Positions 12,063 to 29,757 of a DNA stretch of 64,000 bases are shown here, in pieces. A program made the position numbers and the translations under genes. Within the stretch, counting starts at the first letter, position 1. Each line of letters begins with the position of its first letter. The notes beneath the pieces are model-generated. The model had not been told where the DNA came from, made no database searches, and saw nothing but the letters and a program-made list of their open reading frames with translations. Source of the DNA: an uncultured Marivita sp. (GTDB lineage: Bacteria; Pseudomonadota; Alphaproteobacteria; Rhodobacterales; Rhodobacteraceae); the NCBI RefSeq assembly GCF_947488135.1, contig NZ_CANKYW010000001.1:496001-560000 (forward strand), given 5' to 3'.

Positions 12063-12191
12063 TCAGTCCAGTCTGACATTCGACGGGGACGCGCCCTGCT
12101 CCTGGGCGCTCCATCCCATCTGGTCGAGGGTGAAATCTGCGCCAACGGCGATCACGGCGATGGCGACGAACCCAAACAACATGGCTTTCAC
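12063..12191 (-). CDS. 42-residue single-span membrane protein, coupled to the WD40/cytochrome gene
   Basis: A short frame starting at GTG 12191 (MKAMLFGFVAIAVIAVGADF) and ending at 12063. AGGAG lies 8 bases upstream, inside the end of the preceding gene, and the two overlap by the bases GTGA. The product has one hydrophobic N-terminal segment of about 15 residues followed by a short polar tail (LDQMGWSAQEQG). I do not recognise a family. The position at the end of the gamma-subunit/WD40-cytochrome unit suggests a small accessory or anchor of that complex. The good ribosome site and exact overlap are the main reasons to call it a gene. Confidence 0.55.
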   Translation of the reverse strand: MKAMLFGFVAIAVIAVGADFTLDQMGWSAQEQGASPSNVRLD

Positions 12192-13492
12192 TGCGAACTC
12201 TCCTTTGGCGCGGTTTCCCGACGCAGATAGGCCACGAGATCGGCGCGGTCCTGCGCGCCGGTGATCCTCTGCATCGGCATCTTGGTTCCCGGTATGTAAT
12301 GCTCTGGCCCGATATCGAAAAGAGCATCAATCGTGTCTTCGTCCCAGACGATCTCCGACCCGTTCAGAGCGTCGGAATAGCTGTAATCCTCGACCGTGCC
12401 CGCCTGTCTGCCGAACAGGTCGTAAAGGCTCGGCCCCGCGCGGCGGGCGCTGCCGGGGGTCAGCGTGTGGCAGATCGAACATTTGCGCATGAACTGCCGT
12501 TCGCCGTTGGGCATGGTGTCAGCATCGGCCAGAAAGCCGGGGGTTCCGGTGGCCATCGGATCGGCTTCTCCCATCGCGGCGATGGGCCATGAATACATCC
12601 GCGGATCAAGCCCGCCCGCGTGGATGTTGGTGCCGCCCTGCGAAAACGCCAGCGCCCAGACCGGCCCGCGTTCCGTCGCACGGAAATCACGCGCGATGCG
12701 CCAGTCCGGTGTTTCGACCACCATGATATACCCTTCGCCGTCTCCCACGGCGAGGAGGTCCCCATCCGGGCTTGTCGCCATCGACAGGATCGGGCGGCGT
12801 TCCAGCGTCAGGTCGGCCAGCGTGTCGCCTGTTCCCAGATCCAGCACCCGTGTGCCTCCATCGACTGCGCCATAGGCGAGCCAGCCTGCGGCCTCGTTCA
12901 GCTCAAGCTCGTTTACGCCGAACCCATGTTCGACCACGCGCTGACGCTCGCTTTTGGAGGCAAGATCCCAAAGCCGGATGCTGCCATCGGCTGAGGCCGA
13001 ATAAAGCGCGGTCCCATCGCGCGTGAACGCGACATCGTTCACTGGCCCGCTATGCCCGGTCAGGAACGCCGGGGCGCTGCCATCGGTGGGCCACAGCCCG
13101 ATGGTGCCATCCCAACTGGCCGATGCGACGGTCGCCCCATCGGGGGACAGGGCCAATGACACCACCTTGCCTTTGTGTCCGGTCCAGACGGCATGTTCGA
13201 TCCCGTCCGGGGACCAGACGCGCAGGGTGAAATCATCCCCGGCAGAATAGAGCGTGCCATCGGGGCCGAAGGCGACGGCGTTCACCGCCGCGTCATGCCC
13301 ATCGAACCAGACCGGATTGGACCCCGACCAAAGCCCCAATGCGTTGTCGAAACTGACCGTCGCGATCTGGTCCTCGTCGGACACGGCGATCCCCATGATC
13401 GGGCCGCCATGTCCCTGAAGCGTGAAGAATTCGTCCGCCGCGAGCGGCCCTGCGCAGAGCAGAGCCGCCGATGTAGCCAGAGCGGCGCGCAT
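12188..13492 (-). CDS. periplasmic WD40-repeat protein with C-terminal cytochrome c domain
   Basis: 434 residues from ATG 13492 (MRAALATSAALLCAGPLAADE), a clear Sec signal; the frame stays open to 13657 inside the gamma gene, but that part is out-of-frame shadow. Residues ~25-320 form about seven WD40-type blades (for example VNDVAFTRDGTALYSASADG). The last ~100 residues are a cytochrome c domain with CSICH at 338-342 and a likely Met ligand in GTKMPM. It is thus a heme-carrying propeller in the periplasm. It starts one base after the FDH gamma stop, so it is probably an electron-transfer or assembly partner of the FDH membrane subunit. That role is an inference. Confidence 0.8.
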   Translation of the reverse strand: MRAALATSAALLCAGPLAADEFFTLQGHGGPIMGIAVSDEDQIATVSFDNALGLWSGSNPVWFDGHDAAVNAVAFGPDGTLYSAGDDFTLRVWSPDGIEHAVWTGHKGKVVSLALSPDGATVASASWDGTIGLWPTDGSAPAFLTGHSGPVNDVAFTRDGTALYSASADGSIRLWDLASKSERQRVVEHGFGVNELELNEAAGWLAYGAVDGGTRVLDLGTGDTLADLTLERRPILSMATSPDGDLLAVGDGEGYIMVVETPDWRIARDFRATERGPVWALAFSQGGTNIHAGGLDPRMYSWPIAAMGEADPMATGTPGFLADADTMPNGERQFMRKCSICHTLTPGSARRAGPSLYDLFGRQAGTVEDYSYSDALNGSEIVWDEDTIDALFDIGPEHYIPGTKMPMQRITGAQDRADLVAYLRRETAPKESSQ

Positions 13493-13493
13493 C

Positions 13494-14744
13494 TTACTCG
13501 GCCGGGGTTGCACCGCTGGGCGCCTTGCCTTCGCGCTGCTTGACCTCTTCGACCCACAGGCTGTGGTGTTCCTTGGCCCATTGCTCTTCGACCATACCAT
13601 TGCCCATCGCATCGAACGCGCCTTCCATACCGATGGAGCCGATGTAGATATGCGCAAGAATGATCGCCATCAGAACGAAGCTGACGATGGCGTGCCACAA
13701 CTGCGCATATTGCATCTCTTCATGCGGTGTCATCGTTTCCGGCAACACGCCGAAGCCCAGCATCTCGGGCAAGCCGGTGGTGTTCAGAATGGCGAAGGTC
13801 TTGGCAAACAGCGGCAATTCGAAGGGAAACAGCAGCGAAAGGCCCGATACGGAAATCGACACGCCAAGCACGATGGTCGACCAGAAGATCAACTTTTGTC
13901 CCGCGTTGAATTTCTTGGCAGGCGGGTGCCCGCCACCGAAGAGGCCGCCGCCCTTGGCCAGCCACTTGAGGTCGGTCTTGTCGGGGAAGTTGTGGATCAC
14001 CCACATCACGAAGATCATCACCAACGCCAGCATGAACGCCCAGGAGACGTTGTTGTGGATCCATTTCGACCCGGTCGCGAGCCAGGCATAGGCTTCGTGC
14101 CCGAAAGCCGGGATCAGGAACTTGCGCCCCATGAGCGACACGAGGCCAGTGATCCCCAGGAGGATGAACGATCCCGCAAGCAGCCAATGGCCGAAGCGTT
14201 CGAAATTCTTGAACCGCTCGATGCGGCGACCGGTCTTTTCACCGTCGATGCGGACACGGCCGCGGATCAGGTAGAACAGGGCAAGAAAGCCGAGCGTGCC
14301 AAGAAGCAGATACCCGCCATAGGTCAGCAGCGGACCTTCGCGGAACTGCAACCACCACATGCCGCGATCCTGGATCAGCACCTCGGCGGCAGGGCCGCGC
14401 ACCTGCGTCGTGACATCCGCCGCGTTGAAACGCATCCCGCGCCACAGGTCGGGGTCGGACGCGCCGCCAAGGGTACCAAGCTGCTCGCTCAGCCCCGCTG
14501 CGGACTCTGGATTGCCGACATTCTCGGCGCGGTAGTCATTGTCGACGGGCAGGCCCTGTTGCCTGCGCATGATGTCCTCGAGCGTGGTCGCGCCGCCCGT
14601 TGCAGAGCGGTCGATTTCGGCCTCGGGGGCAACTGTTGTCGCCTCTTGCGCGTTGACTGATCCCGGGGTCATCCATGACATCAGGAACATGAAGGCCAGC
14701 ACGGCCATGATACAACCGAGGATGATCTTTCGTACGTCACGCAT
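13494..14744 (-). CDS. formate dehydrogenase gamma subunit (cytochrome b556)
   Basis: 416 residues, longer than E. coli FdnI (~217) because of an N-terminal extension of ~150 residues with a signal-like segment and a periplasmic stretch. The core has the four-helix cytochrome b pattern with candidate heme histidines in FERFGHWLLAGSFILLG, WVIHNF and QLWHAIVSFVLMAIILAHI. It anchors FDH in the membrane and passes electrons to quinone. Unusually, it is separated from the alpha and beta genes by ~2.8 kb carrying two plus-strand genes, and has its own promoter region. It is cotranscribed with the WD40/cytochrome gene. Confidence 0.88.
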   Translation of the reverse strand: MRDVRKIILGCIMAVLAFMFLMSWMTPGSVNAQEATTVAPEAEIDRSATGGATTLEDIMRRQQGLPVDNDYRAENVGNPESAAGLSEQLGTLGGASDPDLWRGMRFNAADVTTQVRGPAAEVLIQDRGMWWLQFREGPLLTYGGYLLLGTLGFLALFYLIRGRVRIDGEKTGRRIERFKNFERFGHWLLAGSFILLGITGLVSLMGRKFLIPAFGHEAYAWLATGSKWIHNNVSWAFMLALVMIFVMWVIHNFPDKTDLKWLAKGGGLFGGGHPPAKKFNAGQKLIFWSTIVLGVSISVSGLSLLFPFELPLFAKTFAILNTTGLPEMLGFGVLPETMTPHEEMQYAQLWHAIVSFVLMAIILAHIYIGSIGMEGAFDAMGNGMVEEQWAKEHHSLWVEEVKQREGKAPSGATPAE

Positions 14745-14866: not shown

Positions 14867-14941
14867 ACTTTTTAAGGATACTCAAGATGATGCCAACGGC
14901 AAGCCATTCCGACATTTCGGCGGCAGATGGGCCAAAGCGGC

Positions 14942-17551: not shown

Positions 17552-18145
17552 TCAGCCGTCCTTCTGGTCGTAGGCCGTTCCCCAGCCCCAGGCGCCCGAT
17601 CCGAAACCGCGCGCCACGACGCGTTCGCGGTAGATCGCCGACACCACGTCACCGTCACCGGCGAGCAGGGCCTTGGTGGCGCACATTTCCGCGCAGATCG
17701 GCAGCTTGCCTTCGTCGATGCGGTTGCGGCCGTACTTGGCGAATTCGGCTGTGGAGTGGTTCTCTTCCGGGCCACCGGCGCAGAAGGTGCACTTGTCCAT
17801 CTTGCCGCGCGACCCGAAATTGCCCGCTTGTGGGTATTGCGGTGCGCCAAAGGGGCAGGCGTAGAAGCAGTAGCCGCAGCCGATGCAGAGGTCCTTGGAG
17901 TGCAGGACCACACCCTCTTCGTTCTGGTAGAAGCAATCCACTGGGCAGACGGCCATGCAGGGCGCGTCGGAACAGTGCATGCAAGCCACCGAGATCGACC
18001 GTTCGCCGGGCTTGCCGTCGTTGATCGTGACCACCTTGCGGCGGTTGATCCCCCACGGAACCTCATGCTCGTTCTTACAGGCCGTGACGCAGGCGTTGCA
18101 TTCGATGCAGCGTTCGGCGTCGACCAGGAATTTAGCTCGTGCCAT
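17552..18145 (-). CDS. fdh3B: formate dehydrogenase beta (iron-sulfur) subunit
   Basis: 197 residues with four cysteine groups for [4Fe-4S] clusters: [14 protein letters not shown] near residue 13, [14 protein letters not shown] near 55, [14 protein letters not shown] near 87, and CTFC with later Cys in [10 protein letters not shown]. It carries electrons from the molybdopterin subunit to the cytochrome b subunit. It lacks the C-terminal membrane helix of E. coli FdnH/FdoH and is correspondingly shorter, like the FDH3-type beta subunits. It starts 14 bases after the alpha stop, and its transcript ends at the terminator at 17493-17523. Confidence 0.9.
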
Positions 18146-18159
18146 GTTTCAGGTCCTCC

Positions 18160-21126
18160 TCAAGCTGCCATGATTTTGCAAAGGGTGGCTTTGGTTTCCT
18201 GCATCTGGGTCACCGAGTCATACCCGTAGGTCTGCGCGGTGTTGGTCGACTCACCCAGGACGTAGGGATCGGCGCCTTCCGGGTACTTGGACCGCTGGTC
18301 CTCGCCCTGGAAATGCCCGCCGAAGTGGAAGGGCATGAAGGCCACGCCCGGTGCGACCCTTTCGGTCAGCATGGCCATGACCTTGACCTTGCCGCCCTCG
18401 GGGCCTTCCACCCAGACCTGCGCCCCGTCACGCACACCCAGATCGTTTGCGTCGCGCGGGTTGATCTCGATGAACATGTCCTGCTGCAGCTCGGCCAGCC
18501 ACGGGTTCGACCGTGTCTCGTCGCCGCCGCCCTCGTATTCGACCAGACGGCCGGAGGTGAGGATGATCGGGTAGTCCTTCGAGAAGTCGTTGGCCTGGAT
18601 CGACTTGTACATCGTCGGCACGCGCCAGAACTTCTTGTCCTCGTAGGTCGGGTAGTCGGCCACGAGGTCGTAGCGGTTGGTGTAGAGCGGTTCGCGGTGC
18701 AGCGGCACCGGATCCGGGAAGGTCCACACGACGGCACGGGCCTTGGCGTTGCCGAAGGGCGCGCATTCGTGCTTGATCGCCACCCGCTGGATGCCGCCCG
18801 ACAGGTCGGTCTTCCAGTTCACGCCGCCCACCTTGGCCGCGTAATCAGACGGGATTTCGCCCGTCTGCGACTGCTCGCCGGTCTCGGTCTGGCCGGGGCT
18901 GACATAGCCAGCGACCTTTTCGATCGACGCGCGTTCCTCGTCGGTCAGATCACCGTCCCATCCAAGGTCGATGAGCATCTGCATGGTGAATTCCGGATAT
19001 CCGTCCTGAATTTCGGAATTCGCAGAGGCCACGCCCTCGGCCAGAAGGTTGTCGCCGTCCTTTTCCACGCCGAAACGGGCGCGGAAGGTCAGGCCACCTT
19101 TGGAAACCGGCAGCGACATGTCGTAGAGGTTCGGCGTGCCGGGATGGTTCATCTCGGCGGTGCCCCAGCAGGGCCACGGCATACCGTAGTAATCGCCATC
19201 TGCCGGACCACCCACGGCCTGCAACGTCGTGCGGTCGAAGGTGTGCTGGTTCGCCATGTGCAGCTTGAGCCGCTCGGGCGACTGGCCGGTATAGCCGATC
19301 GTCCACATGCCCTTGTTGAACTCGCGGGTGAGGTCTTCGACCACCGGCGTCACGCCGTCGTCTTCCAGCGCGATGTTGCGGAAAATGCGGTCGTGGAAGC
19401 CGAATTTCTGCGCAAACAGACCCATGATCTCGTGATCGGTCTTCGATTCAAACATCGGTGCCATGACCTGATCGCGCCATTGGATCGACCGGTTCGACGC
19501 CGTGACAGAGCCACGGGTTTCGAACTGCGTCGTTGCCGGCAGCAGGTACACGCCATCGGTCCGGTCATGCAGCACGGCAGAGACGGTCGGGAACGGGTCG
19601 ATCACGACCAGCGTGTCGAGCTTTTCCATCGCCGTCTTCATTTCCGGCAAACGGGTCTGCGAGTTGGGCGCGTGGCCCCACAGAACCATCACACGGGTGT
19701 TGTCGGGCTGATCGAGGTTTTCCTTGTCCTCCAGAACACCGTCGATCCAGCGCGACACCGGGATGCCCGTCAGGTTCATCATCGGTGTATCGCCGACCAT
19801 CTCCTGTGAGAACTGCGCCTTGAGCCAATCGAGGTCTTCTTCCCAGACGCGCGCCCAGTGGGCCCACGATCCTTCGGCCAGACCGTAATAGCCGGGCAGG
19901 GTGTCGGCGAGAACGCCAAGGTCAGTTGCGCCCTGCACGTTGTCGTGGCCGCGGAAGATGTTGGTGCCGCCACCGGCCTGACCCATGTTGCCAAGCGCAA
20001 GCTGAAGCACGCAATAGGCGCGAGTGTTGTTGTTACCGTTGGTGTGCTGGGTGCCGCCCATGCACCAGATCACGGTGCCGGGACGGTTGTTGGCCAGCGT
20101 GCGCGCAACCCGCTCAAGCTGCGAACCGGGGGTGCCGGTGACGCGCTCGACCTCTTCGGGGTTCCACTTGGCGACTTCTTCCTTGATCTGGTCCATGCCC
20201 CAGACACGGGTGCGGATGAACTCCTTGTCCTCCCATCCGTTTTCGAAGATGTGCCAGAGGATGCCCCAGACCAGCGCCACGTCGGTGCCGGGACGGAAGC
20301 GGACATATTCATCCGCATGCGCCGCGGTGCGTGTGAAACGCGGGTCGCAGACGATGACCGGCGCGTTGTTCTGCTCTTTCGCCTTGAGGATGTGGAGCAA
20401 GGACACCGGGTGCGCTTCGGCCGGGTTGCCGCCGATCAGGAAGATCGCGCGCGACTTGTGGATGTCGTTGTAGCTGTTGGTCATGGCGCCGTAGCCCCAT
20501 GTGTTCGCCACACCCGCAACCGTGGTCGAGTGACAGATCCGCGCCTGGTGGTCGATGTTGTTCGTGCCCCAATAGGCGGCGAACTTGCGCATCAGGTAGG
20601 CTTGTTCGTTGTTGTGCTTGGCCGATCCCAGCCAGTAGACCGAATCCGGGCCGCTTTCCTCGCGGACCTCGAGCATCTTGTCACCGATTTCGTTGATCGC
20701 CTGCTCCCAGGAGATGCGCTTCCACTCACCGCCCTCTTTCTTCATCGGGTACTTGAGGCGGCGTTCCCCATGGGCGTGCTCGCGGACGGCGGCCCCTTTG
20801 GCGCAGTGGGCACCCAGGTTGAACGGGCTGTCCCAGCCGGGTTCCTGGCCGATCCAGACGCCATTGCTGACTTCGGCGACGACGGTACAGCCGACGGAAC
20901 AGTGCGTGCAGACCGATTTGACGGTTTCGACCGCGCCGTTGACGGCGGATTGCGCGCTGGCTTGCGTGACCGCGCCACCCGTGGCGCTGATGGCTGCAAG
21001 GCCACCGATGGCAAGGCCCGATCCGCGCAGGAACGAGCGGCGGTCGACGGATTTGTGAGCGACTTCCGAGATCAGGCCTGTCCGCGCAGCGCGTCGGGTC
21101 AGCCCTCCGGTTTTCTTTCTTAGCAT
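18160..21126 (-). CDS. fdhA: formate dehydrogenase alpha (Mo/W-bis-MGD) subunit, Cys type
   Basis: 988 residues. A Tat signal (DRRSFLRGSGLAIGG) follows ~28 extra residues, so the protein is exported folded. The N-terminal [4Fe-4S] site is CTHCSVGCTVVAE with a fourth Cys in GAHCAKG. The metal ligand is the Cys in ARICHSTTVAG, where E. coli FdnG has selenocysteine; no in-frame TGA is needed. The flanking His is kept. It oxidises formate to CO2. The TorD-like chaperone, DUF3305/3306 and the 63-residue Tat protein upstream on the same strand form its expression unit. Formate as substrate is well supported by subunit set and neighbours. Confidence 0.92.
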   Translation of the reverse strand: MLRKKTGGLTRRAARTGLISEVAHKSVDRRSFLRGSGLAIGGLAAISATGGAVTQASAQSAVNGAVETVKSVCTHCSVGCTVVAEVSNGVWIGQEPGWDSPFNLGAHCAKGAAVREHAHGERRLKYPMKKEGGEWKRISWEQAINEIGDKMLEVREESGPDSVYWLGSAKHNNEQAYLMRKFAAYWGTNNIDHQARICHSTTVAGVANTWGYGAMTNSYNDIHKSRAIFLIGGNPAEAHPVSLLHILKAKEQNNAPVIVCDPRFTRTAAHADEYVRFRPGTDVALVWGILWHIFENGWEDKEFIRTRVWGMDQIKEEVAKWNPEEVERVTGTPGSQLERVARTLANNRPGTVIWCMGGTQHTNGNNNTRAYCVLQLALGNMGQAGGGTNIFRGHDNVQGATDLGVLADTLPGYYGLAEGSWAHWARVWEEDLDWLKAQFSQEMVGDTPMMNLTGIPVSRWIDGVLEDKENLDQPDNTRVMVLWGHAPNSQTRLPEMKTAMEKLDTLVVIDPFPTVSAVLHDRTDGVYLLPATTQFETRGSVTASNRSIQWRDQVMAPMFESKTDHEIMGLFAQKFGFHDRIFRNIALEDDGVTPVVEDLTREFNKGMWTIGYTGQSPERLKLHMANQHTFDRTTLQAVGGPADGDYYGMPWPCWGTAEMNHPGTPNLYDMSLPVSKGGLTFRARFGVEKDGDNLLAEGVASANSEIQDGYPEFTMQMLIDLGWDGDLTDEERASIEKVAGYVSPGQTETGEQSQTGEIPSDYAAKVGGVNWKTDLSGGIQRVAIKHECAPFGNAKARAVVWTFPDPVPLHREPLYTNRYDLVADYPTYEDKKFWRVPTMYKSIQANDFSKDYPIILTSGRLVEYEGGGDETRSNPWLAELQQDMFIEINPRDANDLGVRDGAQVWVEGPEGGKVKVMAMLTERVAPGVAFMPFHFGGHFQGEDQRSKYPEGADPYVLGESTNTAQTYGYDSVTQMQETKATLCKIMAA

Positions 21127-21228: not shown

Positions 21229-21420
21229 TTAGAACCGGGTACTGGCGAGATAGGCGCGGGTATGCGCGGTGTCCTGCATCTTGCCGTCCGCCTTGGGCGT
21301 TTCCGCGGCTTCAGCCTGGGTGCCTGACACGGCGACTGCTGCCACGGCAGCGGGTGCTGCGGTGCCTGCCAGTTTCAGAAAATCACGGCGACTTGCGGAC
21401 GCCTTTGTTTTCTCAGTCAT
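21229..21420 (-). CDS. small twin-arginine signal protein of formate dehydrogenase operons
   Basis: 63 residues, with GGGAGGAA 9 bases before the ATG. It is little more than a Tat signal (SASRRDFLKLAGTAAPAAVA) and a ~25-residue tail. Proteins of this kind are recurrently found just upstream of FDH alpha genes (formate dehydrogenase region TAT target family). Their role is not established to my knowledge. Placed 102 bases before fdhA and after the chaperone gene. Confidence 0.8.
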   Translation of the reverse strand: MTEKTKASASRRDFLKLAGTAAPAAVAAVAVSGTQAEAAETPKADGKMQDTAHTRAYLASTRF

Positions 21421-21499: not shown

Positions 21500-22114
21500 T
21501 CAGGCCGGGGTCAGTCTGAACGCTTCGCGTTCGATCTTCATGAATGCCTTTCCGACCGATCCGACCGCGCTGTAGAGCATCGCGGTCTTTGCGGTTTCCA
21601 GGTCGGCATAGAAATGGCCTGCCCACGGGGCGATGTGCCGGTTGAAGAAAGTCTTTTGATCCTCGAGCGTCGATGGCGTGGAAAACCGCCCGACGATCAG
21701 CCCGCCCATCACTTCCATGAGCGTCGCAATGTTGTCCTCGGGTTCATAGACATTGGGCGCGCGTTCGATCCGGCGCGCCGACAGGTCGCTGCGCAGCACG
21801 GCCAACGGCTTTTCGTGCAGGAAGCCCGTCAGGTAGAAGCTCGCATAGGGCAGCAATTCGCCACGGCCCAGACCGATGAACAGCTTGTTGAACTCGCGTT
21901 CGGCTTGCTGCGGCGTGGTGGTTTTCGCGCAATCGGCAAGCCGGGTGATCGCCTGACCCAGGTCAGTGTCGTCGCCGGTCAGGCCAGCGGTCTGCGACAA
22001 CAGAAGTTCGTCGGGCGGAGCCGACAGGATCAGGCCGAGATAGTTGTAAAGATCCGCGCGAAGGCGGTCCTCTTCCGACACCGATGGCGTAGCCTCAGCC
22101 GCGCTCATTGTCAT
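21500..22114 (-). CDS. TorD-family chaperone for formate dehydrogenase
   Basis: 204 residues, largely helical. The family motif is seen as EFNKLFIGLGRGELLPYASF (E-x3-LF-G-G-x4-P-ASFYL) and EPEDNIATLMEVMGGLI. Such cytoplasmic chaperones hold molybdoenzymes and their Tat signals until the cofactor is inserted. An ATG two codons downstream (MSAAEATPS) is an alternative start. It overlaps the DUF3306 gene by 4 bases and lies two genes ahead of its presumed client, fdhA. Confidence 0.85.
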   Translation of the reverse strand: MTMSAAEATPSVSEEDRLRADLYNYLGLILSAPPDELLLSQTAGLTGDDTDLGQAITRLADCAKTTTPQQAEREFNKLFIGLGRGELLPYASFYLTGFLHEKPLAVLRSDLSARRIERAPNVYEPEDNIATLMEVMGGLIVGRFSTPSTLEDQKTFFNRHIAPWAGHFYADLETAKTAMLYSAVGSVGKAFMKIEREAFRLTPA

Positions 22115-22794
22115 CCTGTCTCGCTTTCTATTCTGAAACGCATCCGGCGAGGACGCGCAGGTTCCTCTGCCATTGTATCCAAAGGTGTGCCGTCGGCATA
22201 TTCATCGGCGTCGCGATCATCTTCTACCTTAGTCGTAGATGCAGGTGCAGAAATTGCATGATCCTGCATATTTTCCGGAATTGATGTTTTTTCCGGCGAT
22301 CTTTCCGGGGTCTGGTCGCTCAAGGCGATTTCCGACAGATTCTCTGGGGTATCAATGCCTTCGCCCGCTTGGGCCGCGATCTTCGACCGTTCCTGTTCTT
22401 CCAATGCCTGTACGTGACGCAGCAATCCCTTGCCCACCTGGTAGGCCGTTTTCACCCCCGGCGCGTCGGTCGCCGCATTGGTGAAATCGCCGTCGTAATC
22501 GTTGAGCCCATCCAGATTGGCGAGCACGGGATTGAGCTTCCACAACTGCCGCATCGCGCGTCTGCGGAGGCGTTCGGGCACCGCCTTGTGCATGAACCCC
22601 GCGATATCCTGTCCGGGCTCGAGACTGTCCGGGTCTGGCAGGCCGAACTCTTCGAGGATCTCGGCGTCGGTCTTTTCTTCAAGCTGCTGTTGCGCCGCGC
22701 GGGTTTCGACCTCTTCGGCGCGTCGAGCCTCCTCGGCTTGCTCGGCCTCCACCCGCGCCTTGCGGCGGGACCAGAAATCCGATCCCCGGCTCAT
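22111..22794 (-). CDS. DUF3306 family FDH accessory protein
   Basis: 227 residues from ATG 22794 (MSRGSDFWSRRKARVEAEQA); the frame is open further upstream but that part covers DUF3305. A highly charged coiled segment (residues ~10-55) precedes the conserved core PERLRRRAMRQLWKLNPVLA near residue 75, then DGLNDYDGDF; the C-terminal ~100 residues are acidic and low in complexity. The family occurs next to DUF3305 in FDH operons and its function is not known to me. It overlaps genes on both sides by 4 bases, so it is made together with DUF3305 and the chaperone. Confidence 0.8.
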   Translation of the reverse strand: MSRGSDFWSRRKARVEAEQAEEARRAEEVETRAAQQQLEEKTDAEILEEFGLPDPDSLEPGQDIAGFMHKAVPERLRRRAMRQLWKLNPVLANLDGLNDYDGDFTNAATDAPGVKTAYQVGKGLLRHVQALEEQERSKIAAQAGEGIDTPENLSEIALSDQTPERSPEKTSIPENMQDHAISAPASTTKVEDDRDADEYADGTPLDTMAEEPARPRRMRFRIESETG

Positions 22795-23357
22795 GACGGG
22801 CGGGCCTTTCGGGCGCTCGTGGGCGCGCGGTAGACATCGCTCACCTGCGCGATGCGCGGATCGCCCTTGCCGTCCTCGACCTTTTCCTCGTGATACCGCT
22901 TGCGCTTGCGCTTCACGAACGGCTCTTCGACGAAGTGCCGGTCGGTCCATTCCTGCACCCAGGCCACGAGGGCGGGGGGCATCGGCACCTTTTCCACCAC
23001 ATCCTCGCCGCCATCTGCGTATTGCATGGCTTCGTGCGGGTTGGCGGTGATCAGTTTCACCTTGAAGGGCCATTCGTCGTCGCCCGGTTGAAGCACGACA
23101 TAGGCACAGACCACCGGCTCGGCGAGGCCGATGCGATAGGCTTCGGCATCGGTGCGCCAGAGCGTCAGGTTACGCGTGCCGACATGGTACTCGGTCACAT
23201 CCCCGTCCTCGCGCAGCAGTTTCCAATGCGCCGGACCTGCGCCCGGCAACAGTGCTGTTGGGGAATACGCCCATTTCTGCCAACGGGTCACGCCCGGCCG
23301 GCGCTGCATCACAACGCCCACCGGCAGTTCGATCGAACGGCTGTCAGACTTGGTCAA
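22791..23357 (-). CDS. DUF3305 family FDH accessory protein
   Basis: 188 residues and the first gene of the minus-strand FDH operon. The core contains VVMQRRPGVTRWQKWAYSP and WPFKVKLITANPHEAMQYAD; the C-terminus is rich in Lys and Arg (VKRKRKRYHEEKV). No signal or membrane segment is visible, so it should be cytoplasmic. DUF3305 and DUF3306 travel together with Mo/W formate dehydrogenases; a role in maturation is inferred from that association only. It is divergent from the ferredoxin gene at 23484, with a 126-base shared promoter region. Confidence 0.8.
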   Translation of the reverse strand: MTKSDSRSIELPVGVVMQRRPGVTRWQKWAYSPTALLPGAGPAHWKLLREDGDVTEYHVGTRNLTLWRTDAEAYRIGLAEPVVCAYVVLQPGDDEWPFKVKLITANPHEAMQYADGGEDVVEKVPMPPALVAWVQEWTDRHFVEEPFVKRKRKRYHEEKVEDGKGDPRIAQVSDVYRAPTSARKARPS

Positions 23358-23483
23358 ACTGGGCTCCTCCCGGGTCCGGCCTCACGGGCGCGGTTGACAT
23401 CTGCCTAGCATAGCCCTTGGGTATGTCAAAACATCAAACCTCCGAAAAGAGACCACGCAGGCACCCGCCGCGAAAGGGCCGAC

Positions 23484-25454
23484 ATGGGAACCAGATTGCT
23501 TCTTTGCGACTGCCTTGGCAGTCAAACCGTCGACGCCACAGCCATCGGCGCTGCGACATCGCTCGAACCGTCCAAAGTCTACACGAACCTCTGCGGCGCG
23601 CAGGCGGAAACCACCGCCAAGGCGATCGAGGCGGGCGATGTGATGATCGCCTGTGCGCAGGAAAGCGCGTTTTTCGAGATGCTGGCCGAAGAGCTGGGCG
23701 TCGATGCGCCCGCGCTGGTCGATATCCGCGACCGCGCCGGTTGGAGCGATCAGGCCGCCAAGGCAGGCCCGAAACAGGCCGCGCTTGCGGCTGAGGCGGT
23801 GCTGAACCTGCCGGTGCCCAAGGTTATCGACGTGGTCAGCGAAGGCACCTGCCTGATCGTGGGCGCGGGTGACGCGGTGTTCGCGGCGGCGGCGCAGCTG
23901 TGCGACACGCTGGCGGTGACGGTGTTACAGACTGATGGGTCGGACGTGCCGGTGGACCGCCGCTTTGACGTGGTGCGGGGGCGGGTGCGCAACCTGACCG
24001 GCGCCTTGGGCCAGTTCGAGGTGCGGATCGACGGGTTTTCGCAGCTTCTTCCCGGCGGGCGCGGCGCGTTTGCGTTCAGCGATCCCAAGGACGGGGCGGT
24101 GTCGGAATGCGATCTGGTGATCGACCTCACTGGCGATCCCGCGATGGTGCCCGCGCCGCACAAGCGCGAAGGCTACCTGCGCGCCGATCCGCGTCGGCCG
24201 GTCGCCGTGGCAGCAGCGCTGGCCGAGGCCGCGCAGATGGTCGGCACGTTCGAAAAGCCGCTCTATATCGCGCTGGAACCCGCACTCTGCGCCCACAGCC
24301 GCGCAGAACAGACCGGCTGTTCCAAATGCCTCAACATCTGTCCCACCGGCGCGATCACATCGGCGGGCGATCATGTTGCCATCGACCCGATGATCTGCGC
24401 GGGCTGTGGCGCGTGCGCGGCGCTTTGCCCGTCGGGGGCCATCGCCTATGACGCGCCGCCGGTGTCGGCGGTATTCCGGCGGCTGGACGCGCTGTCGTCG
24501 ACCTACCGCAAGGCTGGTGGCACCGCGCCGCGCCTGCTGGTGCATGACGCCGACCACGGGGTCGAGATGATCGGCCTTGCCGCCCGCTTCGGTCGGGGCT
24601 TGCCCGCCGACGTGATCCCCTTCGCGACGGACAGCCTCGCCGCCTTCGGTCATGCCGAGATGATGGCTGCGCTGAGCTGCGGTTTCGCGTCGGTCGATGT
24701 CCTATTGGCCCCGCGCACCGAACGCGATACGCCCGAACATGAGGCCGCATTGGCCAACGCGCTGTCGGGTGGCGGCCGGGTGCAGGTGCTCGACATGGTC
24801 GATCCCGATGCGCTCAGTGATCATCTTTATGGCGGCGAGACACCGAAGCCCGTCGCCACCCCGAGCCTGCCCATCGGCACCCGCCGCCAGGTGGCCCGCG
24901 TCGCCGCCAAGGCGATGATGCCCGAGGCCGAATTGCTGCCGCTGCCGGAAAGTGCCCCCTACGGCGCGGTTCTGGTGGACAAAGAGGCTTGCACGCTGTG
25001 CCTGAGCTGCGTGTCGCTCTGCCCCTCCGGCGCGTTGGGCGACAACCCGGATCTGCCGCAGCTTCTGTTCCAGGAGGACGCCTGCCTGCAATGCGGGATC
25101 TGCGCCACCATCTGCCCGGAGACCGCGATCACGCTGGAGCCGCGCATGAACCTCACCGACGCGGCGTTCAATCAAGTGGTGCTGAACGAGGAAGAGCCGT
25201 TTGCCTGCATCGAATGCGGCGCGCTGTTCGGGGTGAAATCGACCATCGAGAAGATCACCGAAAAGCTTGCGGGCAAACATTCCATGTTCGCGACAAGCGA
25301 TGCGGCGAAGATGATTCAGATGTGCGACAATTGCCGCATCCAGGCGCAGTACCATTCGCAGAACAACCCGTTTGCAATGGGCGCGCCACGCATCCCCCGC
25401 ACGACGGATGATTACCTGAAAGAAACGCCCTACTCGAAACGCAAGGATCATTGA
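23484..25454 (+). CDS. large multi-cluster 4Fe-4S ferredoxin-like protein of FDH cluster
   Basis: 656 residues. Four classical [4Fe-4S] motifs are visible: CSKCLNICPTG and CAGCGACAALCPSG near residues 275-320, and CTLCLSCVSLCPSG and CLQCGICATICPET near 505-550. Extra Cys pairs follow in CIECG and CDNC. The N-terminal part has LLLCDCLG and NLCGAQ and an LIVGAG stretch that could bind a nucleotide. No signal is seen, so it is cytoplasmic. It could carry electrons between FDH-linked reactions or act in cluster and cofactor assembly. It is divergently arranged from the FDH operon and ends at a double palindrome. Confidence 0.75.
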   Translation: MGTRLLLCDCLGSQTVDATAIGAATSLEPSKVYTNLCGAQAETTAKAIEAGDVMIACAQESAFFEMLAEELGVDAPALVDIRDRAGWSDQAAKAGPKQAALAAEAVLNLPVPKVIDVVSEGTCLIVGAGDAVFAAAAQLCDTLAVTVLQTDGSDVPVDRRFDVVRGRVRNLTGALGQFEVRIDGFSQLLPGGRGAFAFSDPKDGAVSECDLVIDLTGDPAMVPAPHKREGYLRADPRRPVAVAAALAEAAQMVGTFEKPLYIALEPALCAHSRAEQTGCSKCLNICPTGAITSAGDHVAIDPMICAGCGACAALCPSGAIAYDAPPVSAVFRRLDALSSTYRKAGGTAPRLLVHDADHGVEMIGLAARFGRGLPADVIPFATDSLAAFGHAEMMAALSCGFASVDVLLAPRTERDTPEHEAALANALSGGGRVQVLDMVDPDALSDHLYGGETPKPVATPSLPIGTRRQVARVAAKAMMPEAELLPLPESAPYGAVLVDKEACTLCLSCVSLCPSGALGDNPDLPQLLFQEDACLQCGICATICPETAITLEPRMNLTDAAFNQVVLNEEEPFACIECGALFGVKSTIEKITEKLAGKHSMFATSDAAKMIQMCDNCRIQAQYHSQNNPFAMGAPRIPRTTDDYLKETPYSKRKDH

Positions 25455-25459
25455 GCGGG

Positions 25460-25502
25460 CAAGCGCGTTCGAACGCGCTTGTTTCGCGATTTCGAAATCG
25501 CG
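25460..25502. repeat. tandem double palindrome, convergent-gene junction type
   Basis: A 22-base palindrome (25460-25481, arms CAAGCGCGTTC) and an 18-base one (CGCGATTTCGAAATCGCG, 25485-25502), both centred on TTCGAA. They begin 5 bases after a plus-strand stop and end 30 bases before the convergent gene's stop. Same design as 17032-17081. Confidence 0.8.
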
Positions 25503-25532
25503 GTGCAACGCCATCGGAGGGGCGTTCCCGCG

Positions 25533-26294
25533 TCAATCCTGCATCGACTGGATCGGACGCCCCAGATCAGCCGGGGCGATGCCCTGCACGAAGGCCATGA
25601 TGTTCTCCAGATCGCCAAGTGTCATTTCCACGGCGTGGATCGGAGAGGGGCGGGTCGCATCAAAAGGCTCGGTCACATCCGCGATTTGCGTAAAGGCCGG
25701 ATGCGGGTTCAGCACGTAGAACGCCTGGAACCGATCCTCCCAATCGCGCAGCGTGCGCAGAACGGCGAAGGAGGGCGTCGATCCGATGGAGTTCATGCGG
25801 TTCTTGTCGCTCACCACGTGGCAGCGGCCGCAATGGGACAGCGACACCTCTTCCCCCCGCAGGGCGTCGCCGTCATAGGACACCTCGACCACGACCTTTT
25901 GGACCTCCACTTCGGAGGTGAAGACCGTCGCGCCGTCGATCTCGTAGCTGTCCACGGTGTTGCGCCCCACGTCCGAGCGCAGCCAGTCGGCAAAGCGCTG
26001 CGCGTCGGGATCCTCTCCGGCATCGAAGCGCCAGACCCTGTCCAGCCCTTCGAAGGCGATGATCCCCGACTCCCCGAACCGGGCATCGGCAGGTGCATCC
26101 GGGCCGGTCAGCGTGATCCGTGTCTGGGTCTTGAGCGTGAAGCGCGGCAGGATGTAGCCCAGCAATCCGCTTTCGACGAGCGCTGCGGGCGCGTGCAGGG
26201 TGAACGCCTTGTCCTGCGCCTTTGCGGGCAGGGCAAGCGCAAGGCTCGCCATCGCGCCGAGGACAAAAGCCGGAATAGATCGGGTCGCGGTCAT
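25533..26294 (-). CDS. exported heme protein with solute-binding-like N-terminus
   Basis: 253 residues with a Sec signal (IPAFVLGAMASLALALPAKA). Residues ~30-130 (FTLHAPAALVESGLLGYILP, then FTLKTQTRITLTG) resemble the start of tungstate/molybdate-type periplasmic binding proteins. Residues 155-159 are CGRCH, a c-type heme site, with candidate distal Met residues after it (DKNRMNSIGS, MTLGDLENIM). The protein therefore seems to fuse a shortened binding lobe to a cytochrome. It is convergent with the ferredoxin and divergent from the DUF6494-ApbC genes. A metal-sensing or electron-transfer role for FDH is conjecture. Confidence 0.6.
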   Translation of the reverse strand: MTATRSIPAFVLGAMASLALALPAKAQDKAFTLHAPAALVESGLLGYILPRFTLKTQTRITLTGPDAPADARFGESGIIAFEGLDRVWRFDAGEDPDAQRFADWLRSDVGRNTVDSYEIDGATVFTSEVEVQKVVVEVSYDGDALRGEEVSLSHCGRCHVVSDKNRMNSIGSTPSFAVLRTLRDWEDRFQAFYVLNPHPAFTQIADVTEPFDATRPSPIHAVEMTLGDLENIMAFVQGIAPADLGRPIQSMQD

Positions 26295-26393
26295 TCTGGT
26301 GCGCCTCCTCGCTTGAAAGCCTAAAGGCGGTGGCTTACACCCGTCAACGCTCTAGCTCGCCGATAAAGAGCGGATGCCCAAGGGAGAAAACCG

Positions 26394-26585
26394 ATGAGCG
26401 ACGATTTCAACATGTCCATGCGCAAGTTCCTCAAGCAGGTTGGGGTCACCTCCCAGCAGGCGATCGAAGAGGCGATGCGCAACGCCGAGACCAGCGGCAA
26501 GACCTTTGACGCCAAGGTGGTGCTGACCATCGACGGTCTGGACCTCGAGCATGTCGTGACCGGTACGATCAAGGGACAAGACTGA
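26394..26585 (+). CDS. DUF6494 family small protein
   Basis: 63 residues (MSDDFNMSMRKFLKQVGVTS), with no membrane segment or cysteine. It matches my recollection of the DUF6494 family found in FDH accessory clusters. Its stop is 2 bases before the ApbC gene, making it first in a four-gene unit with ApbC, the DUF4444 protein and DUF6505. Function unknown. Confidence 0.7.
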   Translation: MSDDFNMSMRKFLKQVGVTSQQAIEEAMRNAETSGKTFDAKVVLTIDGLDLEHVVTGTIKGQD

Positions 26586-26587
26586 CC

Positions 26588-27652
26588 GTGGCACTGACGC
26601 GTGATGCGGTTCTGGCCGCACTGAAAGCCGTGACCGATCCGGTCTCGGGACAGGATATCGTGGCCGCAGGTGTCGTGCGGGCGCTCAATGTAGATGGCGA
26701 CGCGGTGCGTTTCGTGGTCGAAGTGGCCCCGGACAAGGCCGAAGCCTACGGCTGGGTGCGCCAAGCCGCCGAGGATGCGGTCAAGGCGCTGGGTGCGGCC
26801 AGCGTGTCGGCGGTGATGACCGCCCATTCCGCGCCGAAACCGCCGCCTGACCTCAAGGGCGGGGCCAAGCCGAAACCGGCGGGGCCAGAGAAAATCCCCG
26901 GTGTGGATCGCATCATCGCCATTGCCTCTGGCAAGGGCGGCGTGGGCAAATCCACCGTGTCGGCGAACCTTGCCTGCGCGCTCGCCGCCGAAGGGCGGCG
27001 CGTCGGGTTGCTGGATGCGGATGTCTACGGACCCAGCCAGCCACGGATGCTGGGCGTCTCGGGGCGCCCTGCCAGCCCGGATGGCAAGACCATCCTGCCG
27101 ATGCGCAATTTCGGCGTGACGATGATGTCGATGGGTCTGATGGTGAACGAAGGTCAGGCCGTCGTCTGGCGCGGACCGATGCTCATGGGTGCGTTGCAGC
27201 AGATGTTGATGCAGGTGCAATGGGGCGCGCTGGATGTGCTTCTGGTGGACCTGCCGCCCGGCACCGGCGATGTGCAGATGACCCTGTCGCAGAAGGCGCA
27301 TGTTGATGGGGCGGTTGTCGTTTCGACCCCGCAGGACGTGGCCTTGATGGATGCGCGCAAGGGGATCGACATGTTCAACCAGATGAACGTGCCGATTGTC
27401 GGACTTATCGAGAATATGTCCACACATATCTGCTCCAATTGCGGCCATGAGGAACACATCTTCGGCCACGGCGGCGTTGCGGCAGAGGCGGCGAAACTCG
27501 GCGTACCTTTGCTGGCCGAAATCCCGCTGCACCTCGACATCCGCAAGGCGGCTGATGGCGGCGCTCCCATCGTCGTGTCGAAACCCGACAGCGCACAGGC
27601 GCAGGCATTCCGCGATCTGGCGCGCAAACTGATCGACGCTGGCAAGGCATGA
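26588..27652 (+). CDS. apbC: Mrp/ApbC family iron-sulfur carrier ATPase
   Basis: 354 residues. An N-terminal MIP18-type domain (LKAVTDPVSGQDIVAAGVVR, residues ~10-80) is joined to a P-loop ATPase with the deviant Walker A ASGKGGVGKSTVSANLA near residue 115. A conserved CSNCGHEEHIFG near residue 278 supplies the bridging Cys pair. Family members bind a [4Fe-4S] cluster and pass it to target enzymes in the cytoplasm. It overlaps the next gene by 4 bases. The FDH surroundings suggest that the cluster-rich FDH subunits or the large ferredoxin are its clients. Confidence 0.9.
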   Translation: MALTRDAVLAALKAVTDPVSGQDIVAAGVVRALNVDGDAVRFVVEVAPDKAEAYGWVRQAAEDAVKALGAASVSAVMTAHSAPKPPPDLKGGAKPKPAGPEKIPGVDRIIAIASGKGGVGKSTVSANLACALAAEGRRVGLLDADVYGPSQPRMLGVSGRPASPDGKTILPMRNFGVTMMSMGLMVNEGQAVVWRGPMLMGALQQMLMQVQWGALDVLLVDLPPGTGDVQMTLSQKAHVDGAVVVSTPQDVALMDARKGIDMFNQMNVPIVGLIENMSTHICSNCGHEEHIFGHGGVAAEAAKLGVPLLAEIPLHLDIRKAADGGAPIVVSKPDSAQAQAFRDLARKLIDAGKA

Positions 27653-28356
27653 CATCAGGCCCGTCGTTTCCGCCCCTGATGCAGGGCATCAACGCGGCGG
27701 GGGCGGACCCGTTCGAGGCGGCCTGCGCCGAGGCGGCGGCGGGCTGCGACGCGGGCACGATCCTGTATGACGCATCGCCGGATCGGGTGCGTGCCGCGAT
27801 CGTTTTGGCGCCCGAAGTGCCGCTGGCGGATGCGGCGGCGATGCTGCCGCTGACCGGGGTGGCGGTGCAGAACGCGCTGGGCGCGCTTGGTCCGTCAGAG
27901 CTTGCCGTGCATCTGTGCTGGGACGGGCCGATCCGGGTGAACAGAGGTCTCTGTGGCACGGTGCGCGGGGCGACGGATACCTCGGATACAGGGACAGAGC
28001 CGGGATGGCTTGTCACCGGGTTCGAACTGATCTTCGCGCGCGAAAGCACTGCGGGTGGCGAAACGCCCGACGAGACCGACCTGATGAGCGAGGGCTGCGG
28101 CGACCTGACCCCAGTCGATCTGCTGGAAAGCTGGTCGCGGCATCTGCTCAACTGGATCAGCCGCTGGGAGAGCGAGGGCATGGGGCCGCTCCACGCCGAA
28201 TGGTCCGGTCTGGCGCATGGGATAGGGCAGGACGGCACGTTTCTGGGCCGCTCGGGCCATTTCCTTGGCCTCGACGAAAAGCTTGGCCTCTTGCTTCGCA
28301 CCGGCGGGCAGACCATGCTTCTGCCGGTGACCGACCTTCTGGAGATCCGTTCATGA
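27649..28356 (+). CDS. degenerate biotin/lipoate-ligase-like protein (DUF4444 type)
   Basis: 235 residues. The N-terminal ~150 residues follow the biotin/lipoate ligase fold, seen in the strand pair around LAVHLCWDGPIRVNRGLCGT. At the place where active ligases have Lys-Leu-Ala-Gly (or Lys-x-x-Gly) this protein has Gly-Leu-Cys-Gly, so the substrate-contacting lysine is missing. The arginine-rich glycine loop of LplA is also absent. The C-terminal ~70 residues (LLESWSRHLLNWISRW) would be the DUF4444 part. It is coupled by 4-base overlaps to ApbC and DUF6505. I infer a binding or scaffold role, not ligation. Confidence 0.65.
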   Translation: MTSGPSFPPLMQGINAAGADPFEAACAEAAAGCDAGTILYDASPDRVRAAIVLAPEVPLADAAAMLPLTGVAVQNALGALGPSELAVHLCWDGPIRVNRGLCGTVRGATDTSDTGTEPGWLVTGFELIFARESTAGGETPDETDLMSEGCGDLTPVDLLESWSRHLLNWISRWESEGMGPLHAEWSGLAHGIGQDGTFLGRSGHFLGLDEKLGLLLRTGGQTMLLPVTDLLEIRS

Positions 28357-28832
28357 ACCTCGCCCGTGCCATCCATTTCGACGAAAGCGACCAGCGCGTG
28401 TTTCATTCCCCGGCGCGGACAGGGGAGTGGTGCATCTCGGGCGGGTTCGAGTTTTCCAACTGGTCGGAGGCCGATCTCGAGGGCCGCGCGAAGCAGGCGT
28501 TCACCAATGGCTGGCTGGGGGCCGAGACCTTTGGCCGGGTCAGCTTCGTTGCCGTGACGCAGATGGAACCGGCAGAGCATAAGGCTTTGGTGCAGGGCCT
28601 CGCGCAGCATTTCGTCGATATGTACGGCGCGCCGTCGGTCGACGCCGCGCGTCCGGTGGCCGAGGCGGAGATCGCCCATATGGCCGAGCTGTGCGACGAA
28701 CACGCGCCGAACACGCTGCTGACCGTGAGCCGTGAATTGACCGAGGCGGGAGTGAAAGAGGCGTTCCGCGTGATCGAACCGCAAGAGGCGGACATGACGC
28801 TGCTCGCGGTGCACGGCTCTCTGGACGAGTAG
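28353..28832 (+). CDS. DUF6505 family protein
   Basis: 159 residues from ATG 28353, overlapping the previous stop (ATGA). It begins MNLARAIHFDESDQRVF and contains GEWCISGGFEFSNW. No signal or membrane segment is present. It matches my recollection of the DUF6505 family of FDH accessory clusters. It is last in the DUF6494-apbC-DUF4444-DUF6505 unit and is followed by a long inverted repeat. Function unknown. Confidence 0.7.
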   Translation: MNLARAIHFDESDQRVFHSPARTGEWCISGGFEFSNWSEADLEGRAKQAFTNGWLGAETFGRVSFVAVTQMEPAEHKALVQGLAQHFVDMYGAPSVDAARPVAEAEIAHMAELCDEHAPNTLLTVSRELTEAGVKEAFRVIEPQEADMTLLAVHGSLDE

Positions 28833-29621: not shown

Positions 29622-29682
29622 TGACGGATCCTCATGACTGACTTGGCCAAAGCTAGCGCGTTCCAGCCGGACCGCAAAAGGC

Positions 29683-29696
29683 TTGATCCGGATCAA
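29683..29696. promoter_or_regulatory. FNR/FnrL-type binding site
   Basis: TTGATCCGGATCAA matches the FNR-family consensus TTGAT-N4-ATCAA at all ten conserved positions. It lies in the divergent gap between the VWA gene (start 29621) and the cytochrome c gene (start 29758), 62 bases from each start. It probably controls one or both in response to low oxygen. Confidence 0.8.
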
Positions 29697-29757
29697 CGCG
29701 GAATTGTGCGCGGTCTGTCAGGCTTTGCTTGAAACTGCGACATTTGGAGGACCTCCC

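Follow-up and report, generated by a model that had tools for sequence, protein, structure and literature searches.

What do the genes that surround the formate dehydrogenase (FDH) of this locus contribute to the enzyme, and do they belong to it at all? An earlier note on this DNA had described an FDH alpha-beta pair flanked by accessory genes and had proposed that these form a dedicated assembly line for the Fe-S and Mo/W centres of the FDH. Profile searches of the open reading frames of the window (the whole stretch of 64,000 nucleotides that was analysed) recovered all of the genes named there, each where it had been placed, and the sequence shows four 4-base overlaps: TorD/DUF3306, DUF3306/DUF3305, Mrp/ligase-like, and ligase-like/DUF6505 (Table 1). 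Both the alpha and the beta subunit are present; they are not the whole enzyme, since a gamma subunit is encoded farther along. The cassette is therefore longer than the stretch first noted and takes in the gamma and WD40-cytochrome c genes at 12188-14744, a part separated from the beta gene by two opposite-strand genes. The cassette consists of an FDH and approximately 10 uncharacterised helper genes that travel together, also on plasmids: all 14 cassette genes, in the same order, lie on a 106-kb plasmid of Sagittula stellata (checked by sequence), and 78 plasmid records contain DUF6505 and 89 contain DUF3305. We see a roughly even chance that the locus is a transferable FDH3 cassette, encoding a Tat-exported, three-subunit FDH that probably contains tungsten, together with its own cytoplasmic maturation set.

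Table 1. Cassette genes in the window and the profile matches by which they were recognised.
Product	Length (aa)	Position	Strand	Profile evidence
WD40-repeat protein with C-terminal cytochrome c domain	434	12188..13492	-	WD40 8e-41; Cytochrom_C 4e-9
FDH gamma, cytochrome b type	416	13494..14744	-	TIGR01583 2.5e-38, above cut-off; PF01292
FDH3 beta subunit, Fe-S protein		17552..18145	-	NF038355, 338 bits (cut-off 240)
FDH alpha	988	18160..21126	-	PF00384 2e-53; PF01568; PF04879
Tat protein of FDH operons	63	21229..21420	-	TIGR02811, 33 bits, under cut-off 48
TorD/NarJ-family chaperone		21500..22114	-	PF02613 4e-29
DUF3306 protein		22111..22794	-	PF11748 7e-21 (score from the longer reading 22111-22842); 4-base overlap with both neighbours
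DUF3305 protein		22791..23357	-	PF11749 1.4e-40
HdrA-like polyferredoxin	656	23484..25454	+	Fer4 3.5e-18, four stretches
Cytochrome c (CGRCH) fused to remnant of one TupA lobe	253	25533..26294	-	no Pfam match above cut-off
DUF6494 protein	63	26394..26585	+	PF20104 4e-30
Mrp/ApbC cassette paralogue		26588..27652	+	PF10609 2e-101
Biotin/lipoate ligase-like pseudo-enzyme with DUF4444 tail		27649..28356	+	PF16917 9e-68; PF14563 1e-10
DUF6505 protein		28353..28832	+	PF20115 3e-81

The enzyme is of the FDH3 type, in that its beta subunit scores above the NF038355 cut-off and a cytochrome b gamma subunit is present. A gamma homologue is found in all 22 loci that hold FDH alpha (the window counted), and 16 of these 22 also have a match to the WD40-cytochrome c protein, with CxxCH retained in the same open frame in 13 of the 16; this protein is likely a periplasmic partner of the FDH. 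The alpha subunit falls under the cut-offs of both TIGR01591 and TIGR01553, its N-terminus looks Tat-like by eye, and in its motif ARICHSTT a Cys occupies what we take to be the metal-ligand position. As to the metal, TupA is present in 22 of the 23 FDH3 genomes among 144 alphaproteobacterial genomes, against 29 of the 121 others, and this co-occurrence suggests that the metal of FDH3 is tungsten. On the contrary, those 29 FDH3-less genomes also hold TupA, a few of them at approximately 30% identity, which counts against the tungsten reading.

The same 144 genomes, of which 23 encode FDH3 beta, were surveyed for the helper families with E-value limits of 1e-30 for FDH3 beta, 1e-15 for TupA, 1e-5 for DUF6352, and 0.001 for the rest. 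At 0.001, PF16917 matched 100 of the 144 genomes, mostly through true biotin ligases; the limit of 125 bits for the ligase-like family was fixed after the scores had been seen, and the first match below it (G072, 114.7 bits) keeps both ligase motifs. Judged by Fisher tests in which genomes are treated as independent, association with FDH3 is found for DUF3305 (24 genomes, 23 of them with FDH3, i.e. every FDH3 genome; p = 9e-26), DUF6352 (18 of 19 genomes; p = 2e-17), ligase-like proteins of at least 125 bits (16/16; p = 4e-16), and DUF6505 (14/16; p = 9e-12), and DUF3306 accompanies DUF3305 in the loci read. The occurrences outside FDH3 genomes are DUF6505 in G101 (diverged) and G076 (below the cut-off), DUF6352 in G006, and DUF3305 in G107. 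A search with DUF6505 gave 80 named loci, one of them from a Ruegeria pomeroyi strain; the ligase-like protein and Mrp are each present in all 80, FDH alpha in 75, and relatives of the 63-residue Tat protein in 75; the "FDHb" labels in this set are cross-matches of the polyferredoxin and were left out of the counts. The co-occurrence with FDH on which the earlier note had made its proposal depend was thus found for DUF3305, the ligase-like family, and DUF6505, and failed for DUF6494.

DUF6494 occurs in 26 of the 144 genomes, 18 with FDH3 and eight without, and in the latter its neighbours (named by eye from the sequence) vary: an Fe(III)-type ABC transporter in G007 and G122, sdhB in G071, a malate dehydrogenase-like gene in G014, and ccm-like genes in G107. 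With eight carrier genomes lacking FDH3 and such mixed surroundings, we rejected it as an FDH-specific factor; by its distribution, it appears to be a general alphaproteobacterial protein that was recruited to the cassette. DUF6494 may also fit the idea that the helper genes have tasks unrelated to the FDH and were merely dragged along by selection for it, as may the two unrelated genes that part gamma from beta in the window. For the set as a whole, we consider such hitch-hiking highly unlikely, because in many families of the class the other helpers stay associated with FDH, show a conserved gene order and 4-base overlaps, and occur jointly on plasmids.

DUF3305 lies no farther than 20 kb from FDH3 beta in 21 of the 23 genomes, the ligase-like family in 13 of 16, DUF6505 in 10 of 14, and DUF6352 in 10 of 18 (the G020 locus is cut by contig ends). 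In G023, G041, G072, G089, G109, G116, and G133, at least one of the last three sits on a different contig or beyond 20 kb, and in draft assemblies the true distance may differ. Among the 23 FDH3 genomes, DUF6505 is absent from nine, the ligase-like family from seven, and DUF6352 from five, and therefore none of the three is indispensable across the class. It is possible, if somewhat doubtful, that the cassette is really two modules often found side by side: a cofactor-finishing core (DUF3305, DUF3306, polyferredoxin, fdhD, and mobA) and a group of ligase-like protein, DUF6505, and DUF6352 or Mrp that serves the FDH in some other way, for instance in folding, regulation, or Fe-S repair. Contigs without FDH3 beta group the ligase-like, DUF6505, and DUF6352 genes in G116 and the ligase-like, DUF6352, and DUF6494 genes in G089; conversely, G107 has fdhD, mobA, DUF3305, DUF3306, and the polyferredoxin, with no FDH3 beta, DUF6505, or ligase-like protein of at least 125 bits, and 10 Azospirillum plasmid records carry DUF3305, none of them reported with DUF6505. 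However, no FDH3-less genome among the 144 yielded the ligase-like module, the exceptions being the weak or diverged DUF6505 proteins and the single DUF6352 mentioned above.

One clue to a maturation set concerns DUF3305 and DUF3306. In four genomes (G041, G107, G109, and G133), fdhD, mobA, DUF3305, and DUF3306 form a single run, with fdhD-mobA-DUF3305 on one strand, which supports a place for the two families in cofactor finishing; fdhD adjoins mobA elsewhere in the host's own genome. DUF3305 also matches the MobA-DUF3305 profile NF011058 (positions 216-375, 87 bits). A read-through MobA-DUF3305 fusion was sought in 385 genomes with NF011058 at E ≤1e-50 and was rejected: just two genomes, G107 and G230, gave a match over both domains, and in each a stop lies between them, so that the genes are simply adjacent. 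The structure model of DUF3305 (pLDDT 83) matched no PDB fold at E ≤0.001 (best E 0.3), and a sequence search of the PDB likewise gave no useful relative. The TorD-like chaperone is under the NCBIfam cut-offs for both TorD (52.9 vs 132 bits) and DmsD. The polyferredoxin resembles HdrA of the methanogen heterodisulfide reductase in its N-terminal domain, a 271-position profile of which matches HdrA 8rvv (E 2.9e-6), whereas its Rossmann-like region has diverged, with GxG kept (by eye); neither HdrB nor HdrC was seen at the locus. A sigma-54-like motif was present in one of 76 spacers between DUF3305 and the polyferredoxin.

The ligase-like protein had been said to lack its key lysine, and this is borne out and extends to the nucleotide-binding loop: none of 16 diverse cassette homologues has the GxGRxG loop or the KWPND lysine (two have an arginine at the lysine position), whereas 14 of 14 control biotin ligases (lower-scoring PF16917 matches that came with a locus) have both motifs intact. 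The motif patterns are likewise found in none of 80 Rhodobacterales copies. With both catalytic motifs gone, an active ligase is rejected. So is the idea that another conserved residue has replaced the lysine, because the residue before the conserved W varies: across the 80 copies it is G in 38, D in 11, E in 10, C in five, T in four, Q in two, and A and M in one each, and eight do not fit the pattern. The PDB entry 3bfm, a "biotin protein ligase-like protein of unknown function", belongs to the same family over nearly the full length (E 3.7e-111); it was deposited without a function, and its listing shows no link to FDH. DUF6505 gave a poor structure model (pLDDT 54) and, by sequence, just weak PDB matches to designed proteins and a ribosomal protein. 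As for Mrp, a second copy in the host genome (G000:C5) is 60% identical to the cassette copy, and the 12 cassette copies sampled group in a single clade (support 0.98); the Mrp of the cassette is a second paralogue, a duplicate specific to it. The GKGGVGKST Walker A motif and the C-terminal CxxC are present in the window Mrp and throughout the tree set of 29 sequences, 20 of which are genome copies chosen by GKGGVGK, so that only CxxC is a free test for those. In other lineages, DUF6352 lies nearby in place of Mrp.

BirA also acts as a regulator in some bacteria. With this precedent, the pseudo-ligase might bind a small molecule and the TupA-cytochrome might sense redox or tungstate, the set governing when the FDH is made and not how. 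That the relative 3bfm has no assigned function and that the cytochrome bears part of an oxyanion-binding protein would agree with such a role, but the ligase-like protein has no DNA-binding domain match and its ligand loop is deleted, and we judge a regulatory or sensing set very improbable.

The fate of the TupA part weighs in the same direction. The "unusual cytochrome" assigned to the assembly set is a real gene, and it encodes a c-type cytochrome with a degenerate piece of TupA as its N-terminal half; an assembly role for it is unsupported. A profile of the cytochrome picks up TupA 3lr1 and 3muq (7e-4) as well as, with a weak score (E 0.04), the tail of 5my5, and 69 of 71 cytochrome homologues have the N-terminal remnant. 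With one pattern applied to both sets, TT[ST] within the first 60 residues occurs in none of the 71 cytochromes and in 12 of 13 TupAs (a looser pattern matches one of the 71), and RGD, around R118, in two of 71 against 13 of 13. In TupA, lobe B holds R118, T124, and D170 (PMC5517513); compared with that protein, the cassette cytochrome keeps two recognisable stretches of lobe A, the N-terminal segment and (with weak similarity) the C-terminal tail, lacks lobe B and the tungstate ligands, and has gained a cytochrome c domain. The loss of the TTTS motif and of lobe B with these three residues led us to reject it as a tungstate binder and also argues against the sensing role. On this evidence, its role would be electron transfer and not assembly, the tungstate-binding remnant being dead.

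How might a maturation set of this kind work? MobA and FdhD, whose genes lie elsewhere in the host genome, would complete the cofactor (W- or Mo-bis-MGD). Directly after them, DUF3305 and DUF3306 would accept or dock it and hand it over to the alpha precursor, while the HdrA-like polyferredoxin would hold the transfer step and the Fe-S clusters in a reduced state. TorD would retain the Tat precursor of FDH alpha until loading is done, the dedicated Mrp would serve as Fe-S cluster carrier, and the pseudo-ligase with DUF6505 would be its non-catalytic scaffold or adaptor. After Tat export, gamma would deliver electrons to quinone and the WD40- and TupA-cytochromes would be electron partners in the periplasm, DUF6494 being an optional general protein. 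We infer that the helpers form an assembly line for the Fe-S and Mo/W centres, with two amendments to the original proposal: "dedicated" fits most members, by the co-occurrence counts, and does not fit DUF6494; "assembly line" is plausible for the DUF3305/DUF3306/polyferredoxin core, a mere possibility for the pseudo-ligase, DUF6505, and Mrp, and unsupported for the cytochrome. A more specific version, in which one complex loads cofactor and Fe-S clusters before Tat export, with DUF3305, DUF3306, and the polyferredoxin taking tungsten-bis-MGD from MobA/FdhD and the dead ligase-DUF6505 adaptor docking Mrp (or DUF6352) on the same apo-FDH, seems to us unlikely.

FDHs are wanted as CO2-reducing catalysts, and maturation limits their production in foreign hosts. 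A compact, plasmid-moved cassette provides a defined gene list for transfer and deletion, and gives testable roles to DUF3305, DUF3306, DUF6505, DUF6352, and the DUF4444 ligase-like family. For FDH1 of Methylorubrum extorquens, the title of PMC13396061 gives maturation of the alpha subunit as the major bottleneck. According to PMC13197769, that enzyme is a W-bis-MGD formate dehydrogenase for which FdhD is essential, and a moeA1-mobB-tupBCA cluster couples tungsten uptake to the cofactor; a word search of its main text gave neither "DUF" nor "Mrp", and the cassette helpers are not among the genes deleted in the Results section consulted. FDH1 is a different, alpha-beta enzyme, in contrast to the three-subunit FDH3 here. 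Among the PMC papers searched, where subscription papers are largely missing, no relevant paper was found for DUF6494, DUF6505, DUF6352, DUF4444, or PF16917; for DUF3305 and DUF3306, one paper is relevant (Bay et al. 2015, PMC4464133), the string DUF3306 otherwise appearing in an unrelated immunology paper. The sections of Bay et al. consulted describe TorD-fdh and DmsD-fdh operons, note fdhD/fdhE in trans, and term DUF3305 and DUF3306 putative membrane proteins with no mechanism given. Unlike the cassette, the operons in those sections come with no mention of a ligase-like protein, DUF6505, DUF6494, DUF6352, a dedicated Mrp, a WD40-cytochrome, or a TupA-cytochrome; what they have in common with it is a TorD/DmsD chaperone, DUF3305, DUF3306, a Tat protein, and a ferredoxin beside the FDH genes.

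The helper genes that an earlier note placed around the formate dehydrogenase (FDH) of this stretch form a real and conserved set. All of the named genes lie where they were said to lie, with strong family matches except for the Tat protein, which scores below its own family cut-off, and the cytochrome, which has no Pfam match above cut-off; 4-base overlaps between neighbours were seen in four pairs. The beta subunit scores above the FDH3 family cut-off. The cassette is larger than the note had it, and also includes the genes for the gamma subunit and a WD40-cytochrome c (see the table); of the 22 loci surveyed that carry FDH alpha, the window included, all have gamma and 16 have a WD40-cytochrome match. 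In the window, gamma and beta are split by two opposite-strand genes, one phospholipase D-like and one endonuclease/exonuclease-like, whereas they adjoin in five plasmid cassettes. Downstream of the cassette are genes for a DUF1194 protein and a small cytochrome c. At the gamma/cytochrome end, the next gene in the window is aspartate dehydrogenase-like, on the other strand; on three plasmids (L298 from Sagittula stellata, L301, and L302), a sigma-54-dependent regulator lies directly beyond this end. The genome belongs to the Rhodobacterales, close to Marivita, and several Marivita records share 94-95% identity with its DUF6505.

Coordinates of the cassette features and adjacent genes in the window
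Feature	Position	Strand	Remark
WD40-cytochrome c gene	12188-13492	-	part of cassette
FDH gamma subunit	13494-14744	-	part of cassette
Phospholipase D-like and endonuclease/exonuclease-like genes	14927-17022		between gamma and beta
Polyferredoxin	23484-25454	+	656 aa
TupA-cytochrome	25533-26294	-	253 aa
DUF1194 protein and small cytochrome c	28917-30165		downstream of cassette

A scan with a DUF6505 alignment confirmed 587 relatives, the best 80 of which (70-95% identity to the window) are a close and redundant sample. In these 80 loci, the ligase-like protein and Mrp are each found 80 times, the polyferredoxin 76, FDH alpha, TorD, the Tat protein, DUF3305, and DUF3306 75 each, the cytochrome 71, and DUF6494 54; DUF6352 is found in none of them. 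FDH alpha is missing from five loci: four (L218, L225, L248, and L284) have less than 4 kb of upstream sequence, and the fifth, L287, has no copy within its 10 kb upstream.

Seven families were each surveyed in one common set of 144 alphaproteobacterial genomes (133 genera, completeness at least 90; G000 is the window's own). FDH3 beta occurs in 23. DUF3305 is found in 24 genomes, 23 with FDH3 (exception G107); DUF6505 in 16, 14 with FDH3 (exceptions G076, below cut-off, and G101, a diverged copy); and DUF6352, which is absent from the window and in relatives sits next to the gene for DUF6505 or the ligase-like protein, in 19, 18 with FDH3 (exception G006). The ligase-like protein was counted from 125 bits, because the whole Pfam family, true biotin ligases included, matches 100 genomes; at this limit it occurs in 16, all with FDH3. 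The Fisher tests on these co-occurrences assume independent genomes, an independence that is not complete. A distance of 20 kb or less from FDH3 beta is seen for DUF3305 in 21/23 genomes, the ligase-like gene in 13/16, DUF6505 in 10/14, DUF6352 in 10/18, DUF6494 in 13/18, and TupA in 8/22, with G020 cut by contig ends. Dedication to FDH3 is well supported for most members of the set. It fails for DUF6494 as a family, because just 18 of its 26 genomes have FDH3; in those that lack FDH3, its neighbours differ from genome to genome, and an iron link of the general family is possible. By eye, DUF6494 follows an Fe(III) ABC transporter-like operon in two small AT-rich genomes (G007, L142 9423-12377; G122, L143 3086-7063), and the diverged DUF6505 relative of G101 (L016, no FDH3 beta) adjoins a GGDEF-like protein. 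The proposed assembly mechanism for the FDH metal centres is putative.

Four genomes (G041, G107, G109, and G133) have fdhD, mobA, DUF3305, and DUF3306 consecutively on the same strand. The DUF3305 and mobA genes share 4 bases in G109 and G133 and 19 in G041 (longest reading); in G107, a gap of 9 bases separates them. FDH3 beta is missing from G107, which has this run and a polyferredoxin; its 18.5-kb locus contains no gene labelled as TorD or Tat protein. The window's DUF3305 matches the DUF3305 part of the NCBIfam MobA-DUF3305 family. From this gene run and family match, we infer that DUF3305/DUF3306 would act at the guanylylation and sulfuration stage or directly after it, in other words in cofactor finishing. 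The window's genome carries fdhD and mobA side by side on a different contig.

Among 16 genomes searched, five (G000, G018, G131, G081, and G128) have two Mrp copies and 11 have one; the second copy in the window's genome shows 60% identity. The cassette Mrps of G000, G018, G131, and G081 form, with those of sampled named loci, one clade of 12 sequences (support 0.98), apparently nearest to three Rhodobacteraceae housekeeping copies in a midpoint-rooted tree. We read this clade as a probable duplicate committed to the cassette. The second Mrp of G128, encoded near its FDH, is not part of it, and the sole Mrp of G116 and of G046 lies near cassette genes. DUF6352 is absent from the same four genomes and present in 18 of the 19 other FDH3 genomes; as their cassette Mrps all fall in one clade, this pattern may reflect a single event.

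The cassette also occurs on plasmids: 78 of 72,556 plasmid records carry DUF6505 and 89 carry DUF3305, 47 of each from Pseudosulfitobacter, many near-identical. Most are from Rhodobacterales, others from Sinorhizobium, Bradyrhizobium, Methylobacterium, and further genera. By gene-by-gene check, a 106-kb plasmid of Sagittula stellata E-37 holds all 14 cassette genes in the same order; beside it, at L298 16510-24622, are a gene for a cache-domain protein and genes resembling type VI secretion components (VgrG, DUF4123, PAAR). The set on Pseudosulfitobacter and Alloyangia plasmids is nearly the same but lacks the TupA-cytochrome, and each plasmid has a TupA gene nearby; the Pseudosulfitobacter plasmid also lacks the WD40-cytochrome. 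The DUF6352 version is found on a Bradyrhizobium plasmid and a Sinorhizobium meliloti plasmid, the latter with tupA, mobA, fdhD, and molybdopterin genes near the cassette.

The N-terminus of the cytochrome profile matches TupA structures 3lr1 and 3muq (E about 7e-4), and its C-terminal tail weakly matches 5my5 (E 0.04), recorded simply as an ABC transporter substrate-binding protein. By the lobe boundaries published in PMC5517513, the TupA part corresponds to a portion of lobe A, and lobe B is missing. Among the best 80 of 587 DUF6505 relatives, 69 of 71 cytochrome homologues keep this remnant (exceptions L293 and L261), and TT[ST] near the N-terminus occurs in 0/71 cytochromes versus 12/13 TupAs. 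Related bare cytochromes occur in G081 (144 aa) and G091 (126 aa). TupA itself is found in 51 of the 144 genomes, that is, in 22/23 with FDH3 versus 29/121 others, and in the available flank of 13 of the best 80 of 587 loci. Because of this co-occurrence, and because M. extorquens FDH1 (PMC13197769) is a precedent for a W-specific route with FdhD in an aerobic bacterium, tungsten is the favoured candidate for the FDH metal. The polyferredoxin has four ferredoxin-type stretches and an HdrA-related N-terminal domain, with cysteines 8, 10, 37, and 57 invariant in 19 aligned sequences, and may be a source of low-potential electrons.

The absence of the key lysine from the ligase-like protein, a PF16917 member, was borne out and goes further. 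Both the KWPND lysine and the GxGRxG loop of about 15 residues are absent in 16/16 diverse cassette homologues and present in all 14 same-class biotin ligases of the alignment; L129 and L154 have arginine at the lysine position. A ligase motif search found none in 80 Rhodobacterales copies (best 80 of 587 DUF6505 relatives). With both catalytic motifs missing, acyl-adenylate formation appears very unlikely, and we infer a scaffold. Its solved relative, 3bfm, is deposited as a biotin protein ligase-like protein without a known function.
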